Shown piece by piece: positions 24,330-38,424 of a stretch of DNA of 64,000 nucleotides (positions within the stretch are counted from its first letter, which is position 1; every line of letters begins with the position of its first letter). Origin of the DNA: Phascolomyces articulosus (lineage: Eukaryota > Mucoromycota > Mucoromycetes > Mucorales > Lichtheimiaceae); NCBI GenBank assembly GCA_025677815.1, contig JAIXMP010000029.1, positions 496,001-560,000 on the forward strand, written 5' to 3'. The notes beneath the pieces are model-generated. The model searched no databases, was not told where the DNA came from, and saw nothing but the letters and a program-made list of their open reading frames with translations. The position numbers and the translations under genes were made by a program.

Positions 24330-25639
24330 TGTTTTTTTTCTGTTATAAAAAAATGAGAGAGAGAGAAAGATAAAAGGAATAGTTGGATGATGATGAAGTT
24401 GCCAAGTTTTCTTTAAAGCGCATATTTATACAAATATTGATTTTCCCCTTTCTTTTACCCCAATTAGGGTATTGACAAGGCTTTGAATTTTTTTGGAGTG
24501 CAATAGATTTTTTTTTTGTAGGCTGACTCGGAACCCAATGCATATTTTGTTTTTCCATGTGTGCTTTGTTGTACAATACGTAATGATTATTCGCTTTTGT
24601 ATATTTAATTACCAAAAAAAAATGATAAGGAATATGTATTATCATATTAAATATGGTTTACTATTAAAGCTTCGATGAAAACAATGGCTTTTTTTCTACA
24701 TCAATTTTATTTTGTTAGATGGACACCATCGGGCAATGAGTTGGGTCGTTTGATAACACATTGTATTTGTTTATAATACGTATATGTATACTCCATTTAT
24801 TTTCACCGTGAGAAAATGATATGAACCAGGGACAATACCGGGGATTTATGATTCATTCTAATGTATTTTGCTATAAATGTGTCACTACCTCCAGTGTTAC
24901 AAAGAAGCTAATAGTGGGATAAATATCCATTGAAAAAAAAAACGATTCATGGCTGTGCTGTAAATAATTTACCTTTATCCGTGGTTACGGGTGATTTTAT
25001 TATGGCGCAAAATAATACACTACTTCATCAGGTAGTCAAGAAGAGTATTTTGATTTTTTTTAAACGGTTAGTATATTACTGGATCCTGTCATCTACAACT
25101 TTTTATTATATCTGACGATAAAAAAAAATACTCTTAGTGGCACGTTCATTGTAACAAAATATTACGAAATTGTGGCTACTTGGTATTGTTATCCACTTTA
25201 TTATGTCCATATTGAAATATGAACTTTTTTCAGCGTTTGTCCCTACCTAACATTAAATGGATGTATTACTCATACACTATTTTGGTTTTATTTTAGCGCT
25301 GGTGATTCACGATGACAATAATACCCAGAACCATTTACCATCTGTTCTCTCGCCTGTTACTCTTTTTTGAATATGCAACTCATTCTATCTAACTATATAA
25401 TAAAAATTGCATATGTGGATAGCAATTCAATGGAACTTATTTTTATAAAATGACTTTTTTGAGGAAGAAAGGAAAGAGCAATCAAGGTTTATCACCGAAT
25501 AATTCATATATTTATGCCAGCGGGATATGTAACTTTTATTTGTTGCATTGAATCCATTCGTCGTTCGTCTGTCCTTACTTTTTGAGCAGATTTTATATCT
25601 AAAAAATATTAATAACAATAATACACTTGTCCATGCGCG
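24330..25639. other. 1.3 kb intergenic region
   Basis: Between the divergent acetyltransferase and F-box genes. AT-rich, GA-repeat leader at about 24353-24375, scattered homopolymers. No gene, RNA or structured repeat recognised. Confidence 0.5.
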
Positions 25640-28074
25640 ATGCCCAACGGCAACGCTTCTGAATATATTCATCTTTTAACATCTCATGATGCATGGACTC
25701 AATTTATGGGTGAAAACGATAAAGCCATTCAACAAGGTCTTTTTCATCAAGTAATAGAAACATCGTGTCTTGCGATTGATACTTTTGTTCATTCCAGACT
25801 TTTGATCGTGTATCAATCCCGCGCCATGGCGTATGGTAAAATAGGTCAGTTTGAAAAAGCCATGGCCGATGCTACCATCATGATGGCCTTGTCACCCCGC
25901 CAACCTCAAGGCTATCTTTGTGCCAGCGAACTTTATACCATGCAAGGGAAAACAGCACAAGCAGTCAGTATATTAGAAAAGGGTCTTTTGAACGTATCAG
26001 GAACAACACTATCCATTCCAACAGAGAATACGATAGTAACAGCAACAACGCCAGCAGAAACAATAACAGCAAGAGAATTAATAAAAACACAATTAAGAAT
26101 AACTCAGGAACAAGTGGAACGACGCATTGATTTTATAAAATCGGTCCCTACAGAAATTATGATGCAGATACTTGGCTGTTTTGAAGACCATACCAGTGAT
26201 TTATTAGAATTTCTTCATGTTTCCAAACCATGGCGCGAAAGAATCTTGGGATGTTCCAAAGTGTGGACTAAAATCATGACAAAAGGTCTCAAAATACAGC
26301 AACTCGATCAACTCTGCAACATCATACCCTTTATCCATCCATTTATCAAGTCCATCTTATTGGAAAACAATGTTGTCTACTCCAAAGTATTCCCCATTTT
26401 TGTCGAACAAGCGAATAAACGACGTTTAAGCAACTTGAATAAGCTCACCATTACCTGTATGTTCAATTTTTTTTTAACATGGTTGATGAGCCATAGGATA
26501 GGAGGGTGACATGACTTACTTCTTTATAAACCCCTTCTCAATTTTAAAACAAGATGATTGTTGCTTCTAATTTTATTGAAAAAAAATTGAATCATCCGTT
26601 TTTTTATATTTCTACCTATCTATCTATACATATAGCACATAATACCGGTTTCGATCCACCTTTATTCAATGCACTCCAAAACATGGGTACACATCTTGTA
26701 AAACTGAGTCTCATCTTATTTGATGATGAAGACAAGAACATGATGCCTTATCTATTTATCATCCTTGAACTGTGTCCTCATATCCAGGATTTGACGTATG
26801 GTGGGAATGGAATGCTTACAGAGGATGAAGATGACTTGAAACGATCGAGACCCTGTCATGGGCTTGGAATGGCTTTTCTTCGATGTTCTTATCTATCACA
26901 TGGGGCACTAGAGCTTGTTTTACGGAAATGTTGGAAATTGAGGACCTTGTATTTGGATGCAGAAGTAGTGGAAGGAGGGACGGATATTTGTAAAGCAATT
27001 CAAGAACATGGGACTGAATTGGAAGATTTTCGTTTTAATGCGGATGAAGATACATACCATCGATTACCTCTGGTAGAAGAAGGACAAGAAAATAATGATG
27101 TTCATCATCCCCCCTCTGATTCTATTCCTACTACTACTCAAGGCTGTTTATATCATTTACAAATAACGGACGAAATTTATTGGCTACCTACCTTAGTCCC
27201 ACTACTTTCTGCATATTGTGAAACTTTGGTAGAATTGGATATGCCATTAAGGGTACTTCCTGGAGCTGAATTTAGTCATCAAATACGTGCCTTGGGTCAA
27301 ACTGTTTTTCCATCAATGCGCAAGCTATCCATCCGTGATATACAAAGGACCCATCGTACAGTGACAGATATTATCCATCAATGTCGCATGCTCAGAAACC
27401 TAAGTCTTTCTTTTGCCAATGAAGAATCTGCCCGCTATGTGCTTGAATGGATGGCCAATGACATGGTGACACTTGGACACATACCTACCCCCACACTGGA
27501 AGGATTGGAAATCACAGTATGTGAAAGGATTTATGATGGAGGAGGAAGTCTTCATCTCTTGATGGATCATGCCTTTGTAGCCTTATTCCATGCATTTCAT
27601 ACCTTGGGTGGCCAATCGGCTTTGCAAACGGTTGTTTTTGCAGGATTGGATCTATCGGATGTTTCTTTTTTTACAGAAAGACCCACTTTATACTTTGATG
27701 CTTTATCCCACTTGGCGAGTCTTTCTACTATTCGTTGTATCAAAATTATAGAAGTAGTCCTATCCAAAAAATTACTGAACCATTTTCTTTGTATGTTGGG
27801 GAAGCAAGGGACATTGACTTCGCTTCATTTTGCCCATCTGGGTCGGAATGCTATTGATGATACATCCATGGCGTGGGTTGGATCGATTACCTCGTTAAAG
27901 GATTTGACATTAAAGGGCTTAATCGGTATTACTGATAATTGCTTGGATTCTCTCGGAAATTATCCTAATACAAATAGATCTCTAGATACACTTTCTATTG
28001 TAGCATGTCCATTTATTACAGAATTTGGAGTACGTTATATACGTCATCATATACCACATGTTGTGAATTTATAG
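25640..28074 (+). CDS. TPR / F-box / leucine-rich repeat protein, Dia2/Pof3-like (copy A)
   Basis: Probable substrate adaptor of an SCF ubiquitin ligase. Two exons (25640-26456, 26636-28074) join in phase to 751 residues. The N-terminus carries TPR-like helices ('LLIVYQSRAMAYGKIGQFEK', 'PQGYLCASELYTMQGKTAQA'). An F-box core follows at about 170-215 ('IKSVPTEIMMQILGCF', 'LHVSKPWRERILGCSKVWTK'). The rest is a run of irregular LRRs ('LSLSFANEESARYVLEW', 'LTLKGLIGITDNCLDSLG', 'LDTLSIVACPFITEFGVRYI'). This order (TPR, F-box, LRR) is that of yeast Dia2 and S. pombe Pof3, which act in replication and genome stability. Copy B at 37047 has the same order and the same intron position. The substrate cannot be told from sequence. 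Confidence 0.85.
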
Positions 28075-28347
28075 TTTTAAATAAGAAAAACCTCCCTTCC
28101 ATTTTTATAATATTATGTAAATATTTATACCATGTATTATTACTATTTATTATATTAATATATAGTCGTTCATTCTAAATTTTATTGATAATAATGGTTC
28201 ATTCAATGACCTGAGTTAGAATACACAACATTTGGATCTAGCTGCTTTCTTTCATTTTCGTATCAAAAAAATACAGGTGCTTCTAAATTAATAAAAACTG
28301 TTTTTAATCCAACTTCGCGAAGATGACAGTAAGAACCAGAATTGGTG

Positions 28348-31300
28348 TCACGTCATGTATTTCTCCAAGGAGGGAGATACAGAATATGTTTGCATCATTG
28401 ATCGACAAAAGGGTGGGATAGGTTGGTTGTTGGATGATAGTGCTTTAGAAAAACCTATAACACTGATGTTGAAGGCTCCAACATCATCTCGATTATATGT
28501 ATTTCGATGGAAATCAGGACAGCTTTTGTTGGTGGAACGTAAGGATCCGTTTGCTGATACTAAGTTATTCCCACGTCGGTACTTTTGTTGCTTTGCTGGA
28601 GAATGACACGTCGGGCAAGTTTTGCTTGATCTAAATTCGTTGGTAGGTATCACTTTATCGTTTTCAGGCGCATTTAATTCACAAGCAAGACGAGAGTTGG
28701 CGCCACGACGATGCTTCTTGATACGACTGTTGAAGCTTTTGAAAGTACCAAAAAATTGAATATTGCTTTTGCCGCCTGGTCTTCTCCATGACGAGGATAA
28801 TTTTTGATGATAAATTTTATGACGAAGTTTCCTGGTCCTTGCTTCCTTATTTCTTCTGTCAGTATCACTTTGACCTTTACCAGCATTTTCCCTTATAAAC
28901 CTTTGGCGTCTTATTTCGTGTACTGATTCAAATGTTGCTGCACTCTTACGATTAGCTGTGTAGAGTTTGGAACGCGAGAGATGTCTATCTTTTTTGATTT
29001 GTTCAGTTGTTGCTGTGTGCGATGGTGGTGACGATGACAACGACTGTGATGGGAACGTTGGAGCCAACATTGTTGTTGCTGTTTCTAGTGAAGGGACTTG
29101 ACCAATTTTTTTGGGTGGTAATTTGGTGTCACGGTGGGATGGAACGCGTGGAGGAAGAGTTACTGGAGAGTAATTGGTATATGAAGAGAGTGAGTTGAAT
29201 AATTCACTAGCAGTTGAAGTAATAGCTGTTGCTGATACAACGATGCCTGGGTCAATTCCTGTCACAACAATTTCTTCTTTGTTTTTCAAATAATTCAAAA
29301 GCTTTCCTTGTACCCATGTCTATGTATAGAAAATGAATGAACCAAATGTTAGATATCCTTTACTATTGAACGCTGTCGTGGATAGATATAAAAAAAAAAG
29401 ATATTATACCTGGTTAGGATCTTCATATTTATCTGTGTGTCAAGCTCTTTGCCTTTGAATGACATCTCAATCTTGTATATTTCACTTTTGGTGTTATTCA
29501 AGTTTCTTTGCGTCATCCCAATTTCTTCTTCAATACTTGTCACCTTCTGACGGACCATTTGAAGCTCGTTGTACATCACAGAATCCCGCTGTTTTGCTTT
29601 GGTGATCTTTCTAAACTCTCTACTAATATCAGCACGATTTCGCTCTAATGGAAGGAGTTTTCGACGTAACACGGCCAAGGCATTTGTGAGATTTGTCACA
29701 CTCGCATTTAAATTCTGCAAATGAAGTTTCATCCCTTCATCCTTGACTGTTTTTTGTTTCTTTTGGGAAATCTGTTGACCCTTTGATGCCGCCTTCCGTT
29801 TCTTATTCTTGTTCTTTTTATTGCTAATGTTATGGGCCTTCTTGACTTTCCTGTTCCTGTCCTTCCTTTTCCTTGAGCACCTTTCCCTTTCAAGAGATCT
29901 TTGGATTCTGCTTTTAGTTCCACACCCTTTTTCGCAACATTCGAAGTGCTACTACTTGCTTCTCCCGTATCCATATTAACATCCTCTTTGTCAGAACTTG
30001 TAGTATGTGCAATAGATTTTGATTTATCCTGTTTGTATCTAAACCCGAGTACATGGATAATATGACGGTTTGAATATGTAAAGCGATATTTGACCGAAAG
30101 CTTTCTTGAAGCCAAAGCCTGACGAATTTTGTTCATATTGAAAAATGCTCCAAAGACTTCGTGACGTTTTTTAGGGTCAAGCGCCTCTCGTTTACTTGTA
30201 ATTGCTGCCTTGAGTGAATTCGATGGAATGACATAATTACTTGGAAACAAAGTGTAAATAACATCAGAAGATAAATGAATCGGGTGATCATTCGGATCAA
30301 ATTGCGGAGCCATAGACCACACATTTTGTTGTGGTACTACAAGTTGTACCATAGCATTCGTAATTGCTGCCAGAGGTGCGCATTGATGAATCGTAATGAC
30401 ATCCTCTTCTTCGCTATCATCATCATTTTTGTCGTTGGCTGATTTGGGAAAGTAATATGCTCGCAAGACATTAACTATTCTTGCTGCTGTCTCGCATTCT
30501 TCTTCATTAAGTTTCGTCCCTTTAAATGCTTCGTTCTTGATATCGTCCGCAGACAACTTTCCACCTTGCTTTTCCAGTGATGATTCGGTGATAGCCACCA
30601 ATGCACGGATGGTTTTGTTTGGTGTTTCCTTGGTCTTTTCTTCTTCCTCTTCCTCTTCTTTTTCCTCTTCAGTTTCCTCATTGGAGACAATTATATCAAA
30701 CGGGTTGTTCTATGCTAGTTCTTTTTCCGTTTTGTTGATAATAGAATTTTGGCTGATTGGTTCGCTTTCCTTTTCTCCCAAAGATCATTTTGCATTTTCC
30801 AACTTTAACATAAACAAAAGCAAATATAATAAGTTAATATTCAATGGAATTGCAATCATAGAATGATAGAAAAGAGAAATGAAGTTGTACCTTGTTGAAC
30901 CATAAAGTCACCTTTTCATATAAGCATATCAGTAACTCCTTCTTCCCTTTCACGAGCTATGGACCACATCAGATCAAGTAAAAAAAGATTGAGACGCCTC
31001 TTGATATATGGAATTGAGGAAAGACTAGTATCACCACTTTCTGTTGTTTCTTTTTCCATCCCAACAGCTTGCTTTTCCTTGGCAAAATTAGCAAGTCGTT
31101 GCATATATCTTTTGGTACGATCAGGAGCCAAATTAATCCTGAATAAAGCGGTAGTAAGTACACGTAAGTCCCGATCATGTCTTTTGCGAGTCCACAAATT
31201 CTTGCATGCAGTGTTAAACTCACGAAGGGCGTTATTGATACCCCCAGTGAAACTCATATCCTCTTGAGCAGAGACGGTATTGCTTCGATTAATCATGTTA

Positions 31301-32963
31301 CGAATATCCTTATATGCTGGTCGATCAGATTTTTCTCTTACGCTATTCCCGATACACCCTATTTAAAATAACAAATGTAAGTATTAGCGATAATATAAAC
31401 ATGGGTACCAACGAGCAACACATATAAAGATAAGATAAAGCTTACATACCAGATAAAATATTGGAAAAGTGACCAAATGTATAAATACCATCGTAGATCA
31501 TCTTTTGTTGGGTTGTATTGGATGGAATAGGTGACACGGCTACTGTTGTTTTCGTATTAGATCCAAAATCAAATTCTGGAGCGAGGCCTTGAAGATCAAC
31601 TTGAGAACTGGTAATAGTTTCTCCAAACAGCGTTGCGATGTCACCAGTGATTATTTTGTTTGTTAGTAAGTCAACACCTTTCCCCAGTTCGGAAAGACAC
31701 TTCCCGACTCGCTCTTGTTCTTTTTGGAAACTGAACAGAATTTCATCATAATCAAGTTCGGATCGCAGAATGGAACGCAAGGAAAAGGTAATGGTTTCTT
31801 GGATCTTTTTGGGACGATTACTATCGTCGTCATCGTCATCGTCGTCATCACTAACGTCATCATCATCATCAATATCCTCTTCATCCACATATTTATTGGC
31901 ATCCTTGCTTGAATCTTTGCTTCCAGAAGCAACATTATCTAAGTGGGATAGAACAACATTCTCCCAAGAACAACTTTCAAGGAATCCACGTACTTCTTCG
32001 ATCAACTGATTTCCAAGATCCTTGAATTCATTTGGCTGATTGTAGTTTGGACAATTCTTCACTTGATCCCCAAACCAGCTCCGATTCACACCTTCCAAGT
32101 TTGGATTTTCTTTGATAAGAGTGTTTTGTATGTCAGTATATATACGTGGAACAGCACGACGATTGCTGTGTTTGGTGTGATATTTTTGTAACGCTGTCAG
32201 AGCCTGTTCTAGTGACGTTGACGCTTTTAATGCGTTTTCCATATCGCGCTGAAGAAATTTTTTGGTTCCTTTTTCAAATGCCTTAATGATTTCCTCACGG
32301 CTTAAAAGGTTTCTTCTAAGCGTACGTTGGGAAATTTGAATATTGTCTTTTAGTTTAGCAGCTGTTTTTGATGACGGTGCTGGATGTTTTCGTTCTTTAT
32401 GTGGCTAAAAAGTATATAGTATTTAAATGTCCATGAGTATATAGTACTCTTCATATTTCATAAGGAATGGTATAAATATATATAATAGTGCTTATTTTAT
32501 ACTGAATCATATCTTCAAGTTCAAACCAGATAGGATCTTGGTTTAGAAAAGAGTCAATATGGTGTAATATCGCAACAGTTCTTTTTCCATTTGTATTGAA
32601 GACTTGAGCACATCGACGGGTTGAAAAATAGAATACTTTTATGTCATGGGTATATGCAAGAGCGACAAGTAATTTAAATCCTTTAAGGATCAGTTGCTGT
32701 TGTTGTTGCTCATTAACCACAAGTTTCATATCCATTTTCGCGTCATTGTTGGAACTGAGAATGTCAACAAGATTTGAACGTTCTTTTAACACTAAACCGT
32801 TACGTTTGATGATATTTGTTACGCGGAGTAGATTTTCACAACCTGGAACGTGTTCATGTAATAGATCGTAAGCATCTTCCAGTCGTTTATGTGTCAAAGT
32901 GGTAGGTTCCAAATTTAGTGAGTTGTCAGATTCAAAACGCGTCTTTCCGTAATTTGCATGCAT
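28348..32963 (-). pseudogene. Fanzor-type (eukaryotic TnpB-like) RNA-guided nuclease, decayed
   Basis: Minus-strand coding segments read in order: 32963 to about 32503, 32404-31450, 31358 to about 30916, about 30709-29900, about 29890-29410 and 29319-28348, in total over 1,000 residues. The C-terminal part carries the split RuvC and zinc finger of TnpB/Fanzor: RuvC-I 'GIDPG' (Asp codon 29253-29251), a glutamate in 'NEFRSSKTCPTC' (codon 28638-28636) that also opens the zinc finger, and RuvC-III 'NRDDVGAFNI' (Asp near 28488-28483). Upstream, 'EVFGAFFNMNKIRQAL' and 'KYRFTYSNRHIIHVLGF' resemble the conserved core before RuvC-I in Fanzor1. The large size, acidic insert and coiled-coil insert fit Fanzor1 rather than bacterial TnpB. 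Signs of decay: exon phases do not match at 32503/32404 and 29410/29319, the frame ends in TGA near 30916, the frame shifts near 30700 and 29880, and one zinc ligand is Phe (CPDF). Confidence 0.72.
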
Positions 32964-34122
32964 TATTTTTTTAAAAAAAGTTATTTATTTAGAGGGGTGC
33001 CTTGTGAGTGCGATGGAAAGAGAATGTAATAGAAGTCATAGTATATAATGAAAATTGTGTAATCAATGTGCAAAGAATAAATTTAAGAAAAATAGGAGTT
33101 TGACAGGGTGAAGAAAGAAGACCCTGAAAAAAGAAAATGCATCTTTTCGGGCTTTTTAATATATGAATACAATAGGGGGTTTGATTTCTTTTTGCTGCTG
33201 ATCTGAGCCCATCTTTATTACAATCTGATTATTTAAACTAACAATGATCTATCATTACTTCGCAAATTGCAAATCTATCAAATTTCACTTTACTGTCAAA
33301 ATTCAAAAAAAATTATCCAAATAGACTGGATGATGTACGTACCGATATAAAAGATATATATTTAGAACTAGAGGGCTGTTTGAGAGATATCAATGATGCT
33401 TTAAATGCATATATTGAAGAGAAACTCAGTACTCTGCTCTGTAAGTGTTGAATTGATGATTGTTATGTAATAACATAGAAAATAATTTGCATATACTTTT
33501 TTATAATGATTCTGCAGAGGTTGTTAAATAATCACTATTATTGAAATGTTGTGCGATGAAGTAGTGATCATATGTCTAACTTCATTTTTAGGTAGCTATA
33601 AAAACAATACCGAGACACATGGGAAATCATATAAGCGAAAAAGCTGCGTGACATATCCTAAAGGCTTTTTCATACTCCTTACATTAATAATAATAAAAAA
33701 GGTGAAGTAGAAGGATTCTTTTACTGTTTGTGAATAAAATAACTCAACATTACAATCTGTCACATATGATGCGAATCGCGTTCCTGCACAACTGTCAACA
33801 TGTAACTGAAGTAATAAAAAATATATTTGAAAAGATTCTTTATCGCGACTCGACTAAAAAAAACATGATGCTATTTCTAAATGTTCACTCTTCCACATAT
33901 GTTTTTTCATTTCATTCAGAGAATTTTGAAACTTATAAAAACAGACATTATTTGAGTGAATCAAACCTTTATTATTCATCTACATTAACTATATTATATG
34001 TGTGTCTTTATATTTATGTTTATATTTATATTTATTCTTTTCAACATTATGGTAGGACTCAAAATGGACAATACAAAATGGTAATGGGGATTTTCCATAA
34101 ATGGAAGGCGTTATGTTACAGA
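32964..34122. other. 1.2 kb between the Fanzor and LINE relics
   Basis: Upstream flank of the Fanzor gene. At about 33256-33450 (+) one frame stays open with protein-like composition ('NYPNRLDDVRTDIKDIYLEL', 'LRDINDALNAYIEEKLSTLL') and ends beside a GTAAGT donor-like site, but there is no start codon and no continuing exon; it may be an orphan exon or relic. A 25-base block at about 33656-33680 recurs with two differences at about 35759-35783. The stretch 33730-34122 is T/A-rich and shows no clear gene. Confidence 0.4.
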
Positions 34123-35757
34123 CAGACAGCCAAATCCTGAACTCATGCCAACACTATTAGCAGCCTGTGAACAACATAGTCTTCAACTTGGCTACAAGTG
34201 GAACCCAATAAAAAGTTTTGTTCTCAACACTAGAGCTCCTACCTCGTCAACAACAAATAATCCCTCATCAATTACATCTTTTCAACTTTATAATACGCCA
34301 CTACAGACCGCCAATTCGATTCGCTATCTCGGAATTCATTTCAATCAGAAGGCTGAGATGGATACTCAATTATTGATTGAACATAATACCAGAAAAGCTA
34401 CTTCCACACTTAATTGCCTTAATGCCTTAGGCCTTAGCCCAACTGGATTTACAAGGCTTTTAGCAACACGTATCTATGCTCAATTCATTCGACCTCAAAT
34501 GGAATATGGACTAGCCATTCAAAAAACTCAACAAAAACACACCAAACTACTAGAAAATACGCAATCATCCTGTCTCCGTCGTATATATGGCAGCAATAAT
34601 CAAAGAGCATCCACCAAAGTAATGCAGCATCTTATCAATATACCATCAATGAAGATTCGTGTCTCTATACTACAAGCAAAATTTCTCAATCGTACCAGAT
34701 GGCTCCCTGAGGATACTCTTTTGTCTAGCTTATTACCAATAATTGATACGATCAGTACTAGTAGATTCCGGCAACTTAAAAAAACAGCACTATGGAAATC
34801 ACTTCCTTCCCAGACGGCTCCATATGACAACAAACAAGTAAAAGCAATCACCAAACAACTACTAAACTTAGAATTCCAAGAGACACGTAACGGACCAAAA
34901 TCAAAACTAGTAGCAGCATGCCGACCTTATCTTCTAATAGACCCAATTGTCTGGCTCCCGATGAAATATAGCCAACGTAGTCGTCTAATACGCTGGCGCT
35001 TAGGATGGATGCCAAATGGAGGCACTTCCGCAATTTGTCGCAACTGTAATGATAATCAACGCCTATCTCGCAATCATGTTATATCTTGCTTCAATGTCCA
35101 TACACTTCTTAATATACCATATGTTGCCCCTGATCCGATATCATTCGTGCTCAACTCACTACCAACCAAACGACCAACATCCGATTCAAAAAAACGATAC
35201 TGGAAATATATTTGGCCTCGACTTACTAGACTTATGAAAGAAATTGACCGCCTATGCCATGACGATGACTTGCGAGAAAACCATTCAGATCAACCACTCA
35301 GCATCAAAAATGATTTCATAATGTGGATCTATCAACCAAATGCAGATTTAGCTCACAGATCACCTTCTACTTCTCAATATACTCTTACACAACATTCTTC
35401 TGAATAATCTTTCCCCTTTCTTTTCCTATATCTCAACTATATTAGTATCTACATCACTCAAAAAAAAAGCAAAACATACATATACGTTAAGCAAGTTCAT
35501 TCTTTAAATATATAAAAATACCCATATTCTCTTCCTTATTTTAGCACTTTATTTCCCTTCAGCTAGCAATTTACCCTTACAATAGTTCACTTTTTCTTCT
35601 TTATTCATTTCCCCCATCTACTTATGGGTGTTTTTTTAACCAGTCCTTGAGATCCGGCTTTAGCGGGTATGCGATTTGCGAAGTGCTTTTTTGAAGCTTT
35701 TATTATCTTTGTAAATGATAAATAAAATATATTAAGTTTGATCCAGACAGCCAAATC
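34123..35757 (+). mobile_element. 5'-truncated LINE (non-LTR retrotransposon)
   Basis: Starts inside the reverse transcriptase domain and ends in an A-rich 3' tail (GATAAATAAAATATATTAA at about 35718-35736). A 14-base motif, CAGACAGCCAAATC, stands at 34123-34136 and again at 35744-35757, bordering the element; it is a candidate target-site duplication. The left copy may overlap element sequence by microhomology. A CA-poor, T-rich 3' UTR of about 330 bases follows the ORF. 5' truncation is the usual result of incomplete target-primed reverse transcription. Confidence 0.7.
34145..35407 (+). pseudogene. C-terminal part of a LINE reverse transcriptase
   Basis: Open for 420 codons without internal stops but lacking the endonuclease and the RT catalytic (YxDD) region. 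It starts in the late palm region: 'LLAACEQHSLQLGYKWNPIK' is the segment that follows the YADD box in LINE RTs, and 'SIRYLGIHFNQKAEMDTQLL' is the typical 'YLGi.f' motif. A thumb-like helical region follows ('RLLATRIYAQFIRPQMEYGL'). Near the end, 'CRNCNDNQRLSRNHVISC' matches the zinc-binding zf-RVT motif (CxxC..H....C) found at LINE C-termini. The listed ATG is simply the first Met in the fragment, not a true start. No function is expected from this copy. Confidence 0.82.
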
Positions 35758-35854
35758 AAATCCTAAAGGCCCTTTTCATACTCCGTATAGAAGGCCTAAA
35801 AAGGAAATTCCTAAAAACACCCACAATTTACAAAAAATTCGAAAATGACTAGGA

Positions 35855-35860
35855 TATAAA
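35855..35860 (+). promoter_or_regulatory. TATA box of the U6 gene
   Basis: TATAAA about 33 bases before the predicted U6 5' end. This is the position used by Pol III TATA-dependent U6 promoters in fungi, and it supports a transcribed gene rather than a dispersed U6 pseudogene. Confidence 0.6.
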
Positions 35861-35887
35861 CGTTTCGAACAACATACCAAAATTGAC

Positions 35888-35914
35888 ATGTACTTCGGTA
35901 CCTCTGTCACATTA

Positions 35915-35946
<32 letters not shown>

Positions 35947-36007
35947 GGCCCCTGCACAAGGATGACACTAACGCTCAGAGTTGGATCGCACTTCGGTGCC
36001 ACTTTTT
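35888..36007 (+). ncRNA. U6: U6 spliceosomal snRNA
   Basis: Catalytic RNA of the spliceosome. The 5' stem-loop (GTACTTCGGTAC, 35890-35901) is followed by the nearly invariant U6 core: AAAATTGGAACGATACAGAG with the ACAGAGA box that pairs with the 5' splice site, then AGATTAGC, the ATGGCCCCTGCACAAGGATG internal stem-loop and GACAC. Bases after about 35968 differ from the vertebrate and yeast 3' ends. They can form a second UUCG-capped hairpin (GCACTTCGGTGC). U6 3' ends vary between fungi, so this may simply be the lineage form. A T-run follows directly and a TATA box precedes. The ends are approximate. Confidence 0.85.
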
Positions 36008-36011: not shown

Positions 36012-37046
36012 ATACATTTTCATTCGATTAATTTTCTTTTTCGACGATGATCGCGATCGCGAATTTTGGATTCGATCATATGCTCGACCATAAGATCGAT
36101 CTCTATCATGGTTTTTTTTTGAAAAAAAGATCGACAAAAGATGATGGTAGTATTATAAAGATCTTTTGATATAACCACACTACGCTAATTCAATGCCAAG
36201 GTATATATGTAAAAGTTGAATAGAGTCCTGAATTAGACATGATCTTACAATGAAAAACATATGCCATGGGTGTTTTTATGGTAATGAATTTTATTATTGT
36301 TCATCTGATTGTTCCTTTTTGTAACCATCTTTTTTTTTGGTCACTTTTTTTCACACCACTGTTTAACTCTCATAATAATAATATTAATATAGACAGCTCT
36401 ATCTGTATTATTTTATATAAACTCGGGTTCATCTATTTTTAATATAGGGGTATGAGTAGAAATGATAAAGAAGTATCCTTAGCTATGAGTGATATAGCAG
36501 GCCTAAAGAAATAATAAATGATTTTTTTTTATTTGTTGTCTCATGATAATGTACAAAAAAAGAATAACTTCTTTTTGTTTCTTTCAATGCAAGGAGTGTT
36601 AAACTTTAAATTTTTGTGTACGATGCTAAAAAAAATAATAATTAATCAATAGTTGATGGAATATATATATATAAGACGGGCCTTTGAAATGGGATAAAGA
36701 AGTATGAGAGGCAAGAAGCCTTGGATTCTTTTTTACAGGTGGACGAATCGCAGACGAAATTAGGGTTCATATACGTAAACTGACCATATGAAACCAGAAG
36801 GTCGGTGATGTTTTTTCCTTTTATTTACATTTTGAAAAACTTCCATGGCACCCAAAGTCCGATATGGAAGAAAATCCTGAGAAAGAATCGTCGGCTGTTT
36901 GTGCCACCCAAGTGTATATCGCTTTCCAGGAGAAAACACATGTATATTTTTCACTATGTAGGATAACGCCACCACACTATTTCATATATATATAGATAGA
37001 TAGACAAAAGACACACATAATTCACATTCAAAAAAAAAGTATATCC
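36012..37046. other. 1.0 kb intergenic region
   Basis: Between U6 and F-box copy B. Bases 36041-36110 are rich in GATC/CGATCG palindromes and in the minus direction encode a short Arg/Ser/Asp-rich string, probably by chance. The rest is AT-rich, with TATATA runs at about 36660-36672 and 36985-36999 near the next gene. No supported gene. Confidence 0.45.
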
Positions 37047-38424
37047 ATGGCTCAATCACAATCACAGTTTACTCCTCCATTAAATATAACCAATATTGAA
37101 CTTTTACGAGACATTGAACGAGCTAGTGAACAAGGCAATCATGACGTGGTGATTGATAGAACGACTTCGGCATTAGCCATGAGTGCTGCTCATGTGGATC
37201 GTAATCGACCTACCACTCGACGATTATATCAATTGCGAGCCATGGCGTATGGCAACAAGCGACAATTTACAGACGCATTTCGTGATGTTCATATTATTAT
37301 CGAACAAGCCCCTCATTTACCGGAAGGCTATTTATGTGCAAGCAACCTTTATTTGATGCAACAAGAATATGATGGATCAACGGGGATCGTGGAAGCCATG
37401 AAAGTGATTAACAAAGGGTTGGACCAAACCACCCATCATCCCGAGTTACAAAAAGTGGCAGATACTCTATTATTACGGGAGTCCACACAGATGGTCGAAC
37501 GTCATCAACGCCGTTTTGATATCATGACGCATTTACCTGTGGAAATTACGGATCATATATTTGCTTATTTGTTGGATCTACTCTTACTTCATAATGAGGA
37601 TGATAATAACATGTTGCTTTCTTCAATTCTCAATGTCTCCAGGGCATGGCGTGCCAGAGTTTTGGGATGTTCGATTATTTGGACCAATATTAATACCAAA
37701 AGTTTCAATAATAGCAACACCATCAATAATAGAAGACTTTCTCGTGATATTTCGGCCGACCTTCCTCCAGTGCCTCCCAATCGAAACTTGTATCTCTTTT
37801 GTAATATCATGCCCATGATTGGTTCTTTTATCAAGGTGTTGGAATTGCATGTCAATCCAGACAACAAATTATATACTACGTTTGTCAAGCATGCAAAGAA
37901 AGGTGTATTTAGTAATTTGCAAGCACTCAACATCCAATGTAAAGTATCATTTTAGGTAAAAAGGAAAAGAGAAAAAATGTTGGGGAAGGGAAAAATGACT
38001 GGATCTTATCTCATCTTATTTCTCCATGTTTATTTGGTTATAGCACCACGGCTGGATGTTTGGAATTTACAACGATCGAATGCGAATTCCATGTTGGGTG
38101 TATTACAACGGATTGGACCCCAATTGACAGATCTCAAGTTCAACAGTGATAATAATGGGAATAATATTTTACCTTGTATTTTTACAGTCTTATCACTTTG
38201 TCCAAATTTGAAAAAATTGGCGATCCAAACGGTGAGAATGATTTCCAATACTGTCTCTACTAGTAATACACTTTCCTCTATCCCACCCAACACATTACAT
38301 CAATTAAACAGTCAATGTTCGACATGTCCTCCACCTTCAAGTACATTGCATCCTTCGGATGCTACTACGGTTCCTAATGCAGCATCAAACGCAAGAAGAC
38401 TTTCAGCTAGCATGAACTCGATGC

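Follow-up and report, generated by a model that had tools for sequence, protein, structure and literature searches.

What kind of gene occupies positions 28348 to 32963 of a 64,000-nucleotide stretch of the Phascolomyces articulosus genome (contig JAIXMP010000029.1, positions 496,001 to 560,000; the whole stretch is called the window below)? A prediction made from the letters alone (the original prediction) had placed there a large Fanzor-type (OMEGA) nuclease gene, apparently decayed. Fanzors correspond in eukaryotes to the CRISPR-like guided nucleases; the few that have been studied are compact. The gene was found on the minus strand, which had been left unstated, and runs from 32963 to 28348 in five exons. 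The predicted limits were right at both ends, with an ATG at 32963 and a stop codon ending at 28348. Very probably, the gene is the cargo of a mobile element present in the window as a decayed copy, and codes for a large and divergent nuclease of the Fanzor type.

The catalytic and zinc signature

Three motifs, GIDPG (RuvC-I), NEFRSSKTCPTC and NRDDVGAFNI (RuvC-III), stand in the predicted order within one open frame of 323 amino acids, the last exon of the window copy. A combined fingerprint pattern (DPG.{120,280}E.{6}C..C.{8,45}C.{2,5}C.{3,25}RD) was scanned against 21 sequences (259 kb) and gave one match, in a sister copy of the same genome (C31). No match was obtained in 30 random 264-kb sequences generated by an order-1 Markov model, nor in 20 000 residue shuffles for each of two exons. 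The random DNA was held to the same stop-free requirement; this is a simple control that keeps neighbouring-base frequencies only. The window exon misses the pattern because one zinc cysteine was changed to serine (SLRSTNKSC versus SLRCTNKSC). A looser G-x-DPG pattern was present in eight of the 21 sequences, a count without a control, all of them but L026 having been chosen as Fanzor loci.

Two published Fanzor signatures were compared, namely DPG combined with a glutamate that precedes the zinc finger by six residues (PMC10711439) and D-X(125,275)-[TS][TS]-X-X-C4-X(5,50)-RD (PMC3627910). C31 fits both: in its exon 5 the aspartate is at 23, the glutamate at 223 and the RD aspartate at 273, and the RuvC-II glutamate lies six residues before the first CxxC (E-FRSSKT-CPTC). 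For the second signature, the window is short of one cysteine and the C1 copy has asparagine at the last aspartate. GIDPG was read in the window, C31 and C1. The catalytic D, E and D columns are all kept in C31, the window and the C89 copy, and the glutamate column is kept in all four close copies.

The last exon was then searched against Pfam. PF07282 was the sole family below E 0.001, with E 8.6e-5 for the window (23.1 bits) and E 9.5e-5 for C31 (22.9 bits), and no other family was matched up to E 0.1. The genome search gave 25.2 bits for this family. A 'Fanzor-like core' had been predicted ahead of the motifs; it was not borne out, as the upstream exons had weak, unrelated Pfam matches only and none of them a convincing one.

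Several results weigh against the assignment. Both PF07282 scores of the last exon lie below the curated cut-off of 26.3 bits, which is a database criterion and not a published family definition. No NCBIfam model matched the exons of the window family at E ≤ 0.1, whereas a Fanzor-like gene on C23 (described below) matched TnpB models. Sequence and profile searches of solved structures (PDB) gave no Fanzor or TnpB, chance matches only (e.g. designed pentatricopeptide repeats). The C-terminal fold was checked as a single-sequence AlphaFold model of the window RuvC exon. This model was poor (predicted local distance difference test, pLDDT, 47), and neither a RuvC fold nor its absence was readable from it. 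The TDG motif, found in the WED domain of Fanzor1, is absent from the C31 translation; by eye, TYSN at C31 877 may mark its place. C1 has asparagine at the RuvC-III aspartate and C89 reads DSE in place of DPG. Finally, the RNAalifold consensus of the 3′ end consists of four pairs only, in the end of the coding part and without covariation.

The low profile scores and the lack of a solved-structure match would also be expected if an unrelated, repetitive gene showed the motifs by chance. This is barely credible, since the random DNA and the shuffles gave no match and a conserved C-terminal core recurs in diverged loci. The predicted Fanzor-type nuclease is upheld by the fingerprint in C31, by the PF07282 matches, sub-cut-off as they are, and by an hhalign alignment to the C23 gene. 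The choice of Fanzor1 over Fanzor2 stands less firmly. The locus was filed as Fanzor-type, with Fanzor1 membership only likely on introns, host and size, because the TDG motif is absent.

Relatives, decay and past selection

A search of the genome (47.4 Mb, 110 contigs) with the last exon gave 29 matches at E ≤ 1e-3, which were merged by hand into 21 loci. Outside these 21 lie exon-2 matches at C45:1541085 and C2:1304846 and three further PF07282 places. In the close tier, the last exon is 91% identical in C31, 80-84% in C1 and 68% in C89. The second tier (C26:768492, two loci on C100, C84, C15, C13:288433 and C48) is 35-60% identical in pieces. Exon 2 was also matched on C26, C84, C100, C45:1541085 and C2, and N-terminal stretches were alignable in C26 and C84. 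In the third tier, which is in part decayed, D-E-Y-[LV]-T-S is common to C29, C27 and C26:143347, and a [NS]-x-[DY]-S-L block stands at the place of RuvC-III in these three and in C42.

The Fanzor-like gene on C23 (L040 2913-5408) is of the canonical type and has TDG and DPG motifs; stops divide it into three frames, and it scores 33.6 bits with PF07282. It was aligned with the window family by hhalign (E 6.4e-4, probability 28%), the glutamate, zinc ribbon and RD being paired, and by BLASTP (E 0.004). Both alignments pair VIPTNEFRSSKTC with VVPTSEIRTSKEC, as well as the NRD..A.NI region. With the C23 gene as query, no match was found in viral contigs or in plasmids, and in the PDB, searched by sequence and by profile, nothing better than two weak TranC chains came up. 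A second DPG-bearing gene of the canonical type lies at L042 4879-6624 (C27). Viral contigs were also tried as a source of relatives of the window family: 42 stretches matched the family-alignment pattern and none was confirmed.

The C31 sister reads cleanly as five GT-AG exons; of its 1417 codons, one (codon 354, in an Asp-rich tract) is an in-frame TAG. No fully intact copy was found among the loci read, which did not include C22, C21, C45:1611061 and C13:711223 (stop-free matches). The expectation of intact sisters came close, C31 having a single in-frame stop.

Decay of the window copy had been predicted from phase mismatches and a stop, and was seen directly by comparison with C31. The exon-1 splice donor was changed from GT to AT, one base was inserted in exon 3, and exon 4 carries a 1-base deletion, a 2-base insertion and two in-frame stops, TGA at C31 codon 641 and TAG at 666. 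With a lost donor, two in-frame stops and three frame-shifting indels, the window copy is a pseudogene from which the whole protein cannot be encoded as it stands; exon 5 stays open. The C1 and C89 copies have large deletions.

The gene was nevertheless under purifying selection in the past. Ratios of non-synonymous to synonymous substitution rates (dN/dS) were computed for selected pairs among the window, C31, C1 and C89, stop codons being skipped. For exon 5 they were 0.35 (C31-window), 0.36 (C31-C89) and 0.42 (window-C89), and for its C-terminal part 0.11 (C31-window, last 150 codons), 0.17 (C31-C89) and 0.22 (window-C89). Exons 1 and 2 gave 0.14-0.33 in five of six pairs and 0.62 in the sixth (exon 1, window-C1). 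The exon-4 value of 0.54 (C31-window) is the least reliable, the two cuts starting at different codons. The range of 0.11-0.42 in the last exon suggests that the gene was functional until recently. Most of the divergence therefore seems to have built up under constraint, and the lesions of the window copy look young.

Selection on exons 1 and 2 would also fit a Fanzor descendant that no longer performs RNA-guided cutting. Such a descendant, carried by the element, would bind DNA or act in regulation, and would have been retained for its long N-terminal and coiled-coil parts. For most of the protein no known Pfam domain was matched, the third catalytic position is asparagine in C1, and the PG of DPG is lost in C89; both of these copies are decayed. 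Such a protein is improbable here, since D, E and D are kept in C31 and in the window, and since the strongest constraint (0.11) falls on the catalytic C-terminal part.

Added parts and the candidate guide RNA

The protein had been predicted to exceed 1,000 residues and to carry acidic and coiled-coil inserts. At 1417 codons in C31, it is about twice the size of most Fanzor1 proteins in print (600-700 amino acids; PMC11423790). Both kinds of insert are present. The acidic tracts span C31 residues 321-367 and 660-700, and from residue 994 a stretch of 91 residues has a heptad pattern reached by none of 2,000 shuffles. The DPG at 1122 follows this coiled-coil stretch, and the probable WED strands, placed by eye at TYSN (877), precede it. 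When window 29352-29948 was modelled as a single sequence, two long helices were predicted (14-117 and 123-170, mean pLDDT 77). Both ends of the modelled translation are out of frame relative to C31 and the outer helix parts are not native, and the helices argue weakly for a hairpin. Parts of the coiled-coil stretch were aligned in C84 and in both C100 loci (26-35% identity), and the extra N-terminal parts together with the pre-RuvC coiled-coil stretch recur in several diverged loci of the same genome. Self-association or partner binding may be guessed as the role of the added parts.

Fanzor1 in Mucorales is already in print (Mucor 10, Rhizopus 4 and Phycomyces 3 families; PMC3627910, Table 1). 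Like SpuFz1, GtFz1 and PpFz1, the gene described here has a DPG RuvC-I, a glutamate six residues before CxxC, a C4 zinc ribbon and a RuvC-III RD; it also shares with Fanzor1 its place in fungal mobile elements, and with some known members, CRe-1 to CRe-3, its possession of introns (PMC3627910). It differs by its size, its second zinc pair (C-x4-C), the lack of a TDG motif and of a sequence match to solved chains, and the coiled-coil stretch ahead of RuvC. TnpB of IS200/605 and IS607 likewise combines RuvC with the PF07282 zinc ribbon. TnpB is about 400 residues long and is not known to have introns. In D-x-G a hydrophobic residue is typical of TnpB, and its glutamate typically lies about 50 residues ahead of the zinc finger (PMC10711439). 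On this evidence, the gene is set apart within the Fanzor kind by its size, its inserted coiled coil and its multi-lineage family with one shared end.

By analogy with the known Fanzor family, the protein of working copies would bind an RNA transcribed from the 3′ end of the gene through the right end of the element. The bases past the terminal ..CCTGTATTTTT would serve as the guide, and the RuvC/zinc-ribbon domain would cut matching DNA, such as the empty donor site. Repair after the cut would then restore or keep the element, which would give the nuclease a role in element retention.

Folding of the 3′ region hints at such a guide RNA at the right end. The last 98 bases of C31 gave a fold z of -2.15 (6/200 shuffles as good) and the same region of the window -1.45 (19/200), with -0.77 to +0.76 in the six other copies tested; C1 was outside this test. 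Directly after the stop lies a four-pair hairpin; 93.8% of cells retain it, and one of its pairs is changed on both sides in two of nine sequences. In five measures on the hairpin and a long-range closing stem, the observed values were reached by 51, 237, 16, 500 and 16 of 500 shuffles. The closing stem was rejected: 73% of its cells are paired, no pair is changed on both sides, and its 5′ partner is elsewhere in C26 and C84.

A wider reading would make these loci a distinct large-Fanzor class of early-diverging fungi. Its members, of about 1,400 residues, would have between WED and RuvC a helical hairpin, conserved and serving self-association or partner recruitment. Selection would have maintained them in several lineages within one genome, all with a single 3′ terminus and a right-end RNA to match. 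This goes further than the nuclease assignment and was considered unlikely. A form of twice the usual size, showing signs of selection, in diverged lineages and with a base-exact 3′ end, all in one genome, is a natural series. It opens the questions of the role of the added parts, of the guide-RNA boundary relative to the transposon end, and of which transposase moves the elements.

Ends of the element, its vehicle and its surroundings

The features of the element are collected in the table below.

Table. Position of the Fanzor-type gene and of the element parts in the window.
Feature	Position	Strand	Description
Exon 1	32496..32963	-	156 codons from ATG; 95% identical to C31 residues 1-156
Exon 1 donor	after exon 1	-	GT in C31 and C1, AT in the window (splice comparison)
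Exon 2, poly-Asp/Glu tract	31450..32404	-	GT-AG borders common to C31 and C1; acidic tract is C31 residues 321-367
Exon 3	30891..31358	-	Single frame-shifting 1-nt insertion relative to C31
Exon 4	29410..30802	-	Acidic tract, probable WED strands (by eye), basic linker, coiled-coil stretch
Exon 4 lesions	29410..30802	-	In-frame TGA and TAG, two frame-shifting indels
Exon 5, open frame of 323 aa	28348..29319	-	RuvC-I GIDPG, alternative RuvC-II Glu, zinc ribbon (one Cys to Ser), RuvC-III NRDD, stop
Noncoding 3′ end of element	28267..28347	-	Ends ..CACCTGTATTTTT; candidate guide-RNA region, small hairpin directly after the stop
5′ noncoding part of element	32964..34133	-	Common to C31 (to 34070) and C1; partly C89
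Nested insert, LINE-like (long interspersed nuclear element), apparently 5′-truncated	34134..35770	+	CAGACAGCCAAATC on both sides, probable target-site duplication
5′ end region of mobile unit	35757..35809	-	..TTTTTAGGCCTTCTATACGGAGTATG.., also in the C1 copy; 5′ terminus placed only roughly, at about 35797-35809

Shared DNA of the close copies, about 85-94% identical, begins at 28267; it extends to about 34070 in C31 and, interrupted by gaps, to about 35809 in C1. The 3′ terminus, GCCTGTATTTTT or CACCTGTATTTTT with unrelated DNA beyond, was found at 10 places in 22 sequences scanned, nine of them Fanzor loci and the tenth a solo end on C16. Twelve of the 22 sequences are without the exact terminus, one of which (L034) has a one-base variant. 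At the nine Fanzor loci the terminus ends CCTGTATTTTT, which marks the end of the element. The solo end (C16:373280, L048 1501) has about 30 matching bases, and no nuclease gene was seen beside it.

The 5′ terminus is uncertain. The window and C1 have TTTTTAGGCCTTCTATACGG in common, and a related motif was found at the start of C89, at several Fanzor-free places and also inside the unit near 33687. The 1.6-kb LINE-like piece lies inside the unit in the window and is shortened in C1; because it is in both, the mobile unit was probably copied after this insertion. A 440-aa open frame of the insert (window 34085-35407, plus strand) had no Pfam match and resembles, by eye, the C-terminal half of a LINE reverse transcriptase.

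For the unit itself, the longest words shared by the flanks were 5-6 nt and no target-site duplication of 9 bp was found, a result weakened by the uncertain 5′ terminus. The terminal 40 bases showed no inverted repeats better than shuffles (508, 1414 and 1917 of 2,000 as good in the window, C1 and C89, respectively), a test weakened in the same way. A search for an empty site with both window flanks gave no place holding both; a weak match at C23:1514379 (76%) is limited to the final 21 bases of the left flank.

The vehicle could be a MULE (Mutator-like element, MuDR-type) transposon with a captured Fanzor gene, C84 being the autonomous form; this does not compete with the nuclease reading. 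A MULE transposase domain was found at C84:44161-44469 (43.1 bits, cut-off 27.6), on the same strand as the Fanzor exons and between them and the 5′-end motif at C84:42768. Bao and Jurka placed three Mucorales Fanzor1 elements with MuDR (PMC3627910). The MULE in C84 could, however, be a nested insert. The second part of its transposase was found at 10 places in the genome including C84 (14 matches in all), and besides C84 only C45 has the 5′ motif within 10 kb on the contig (6.8 kb). The element also has neither a 9-bp target duplication nor inverted repeats above shuffles, subject to the same uncertainty of its 5′ end. A MULE vehicle was regarded as possible but somewhat doubtful. The C84 transposase gene itself (L032 2-688 and 747-1550, i.e. 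C84:44002-45550) lies inside or beside the Fanzor element, and neither Pfam nor NCBIfam gave a match for its second part.

The three MuDR-type elements, ROr-4, PBl-3 and MCi-4, resemble the family in their Mucorales hosts, and a MULE gene stands beside the Fanzor gene in C84. They differ in having no transposase and in having inverted repeats and 9-bp duplications (PMC3627910), neither of which was found here. The MCi-2 Fanzor1 element of Mucor circinelloides (Bao and Jurka, 2013), compared by description only, also has a constant 3′ part of about 6 kb with the Fanzor gene, a variable 5′ part, no clear inverted repeats and an unresolved class (PMC3627910). Its copies are 99% identical in the 3′ part and have 11-12-bp duplications (PMC3627910), in contrast to the lower identity and lack of a demonstrated duplication in the present family.

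A U6 small nuclear RNA gene lies at window 35885-35997 (plus strand, 77 bits), about 76 bp from the 5′ end of the element, and a TATA-like stretch near 35855, seen by eye, goes with it. This gene and the introns mark the genome as eukaryotic. At least 12 U6-like places in the genome are over the cut-off, and one of them (C13:289109) is about 360 bp from a different Fanzor remnant. This proximity was seen after the fact and may be chance. The stretch about 50-115 bp upstream of the U6 gene (within window 35803-35920, plus strand) recurs at more than 10 places outside the U6 list, and is perhaps a common promoter of small-RNA genes in the host fungus. Long open frames flank the element at window 25622-28074 and 36996-37955. 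The latter had a weak F-box-like match, and the frames in 25622-28074 are similar by eye.

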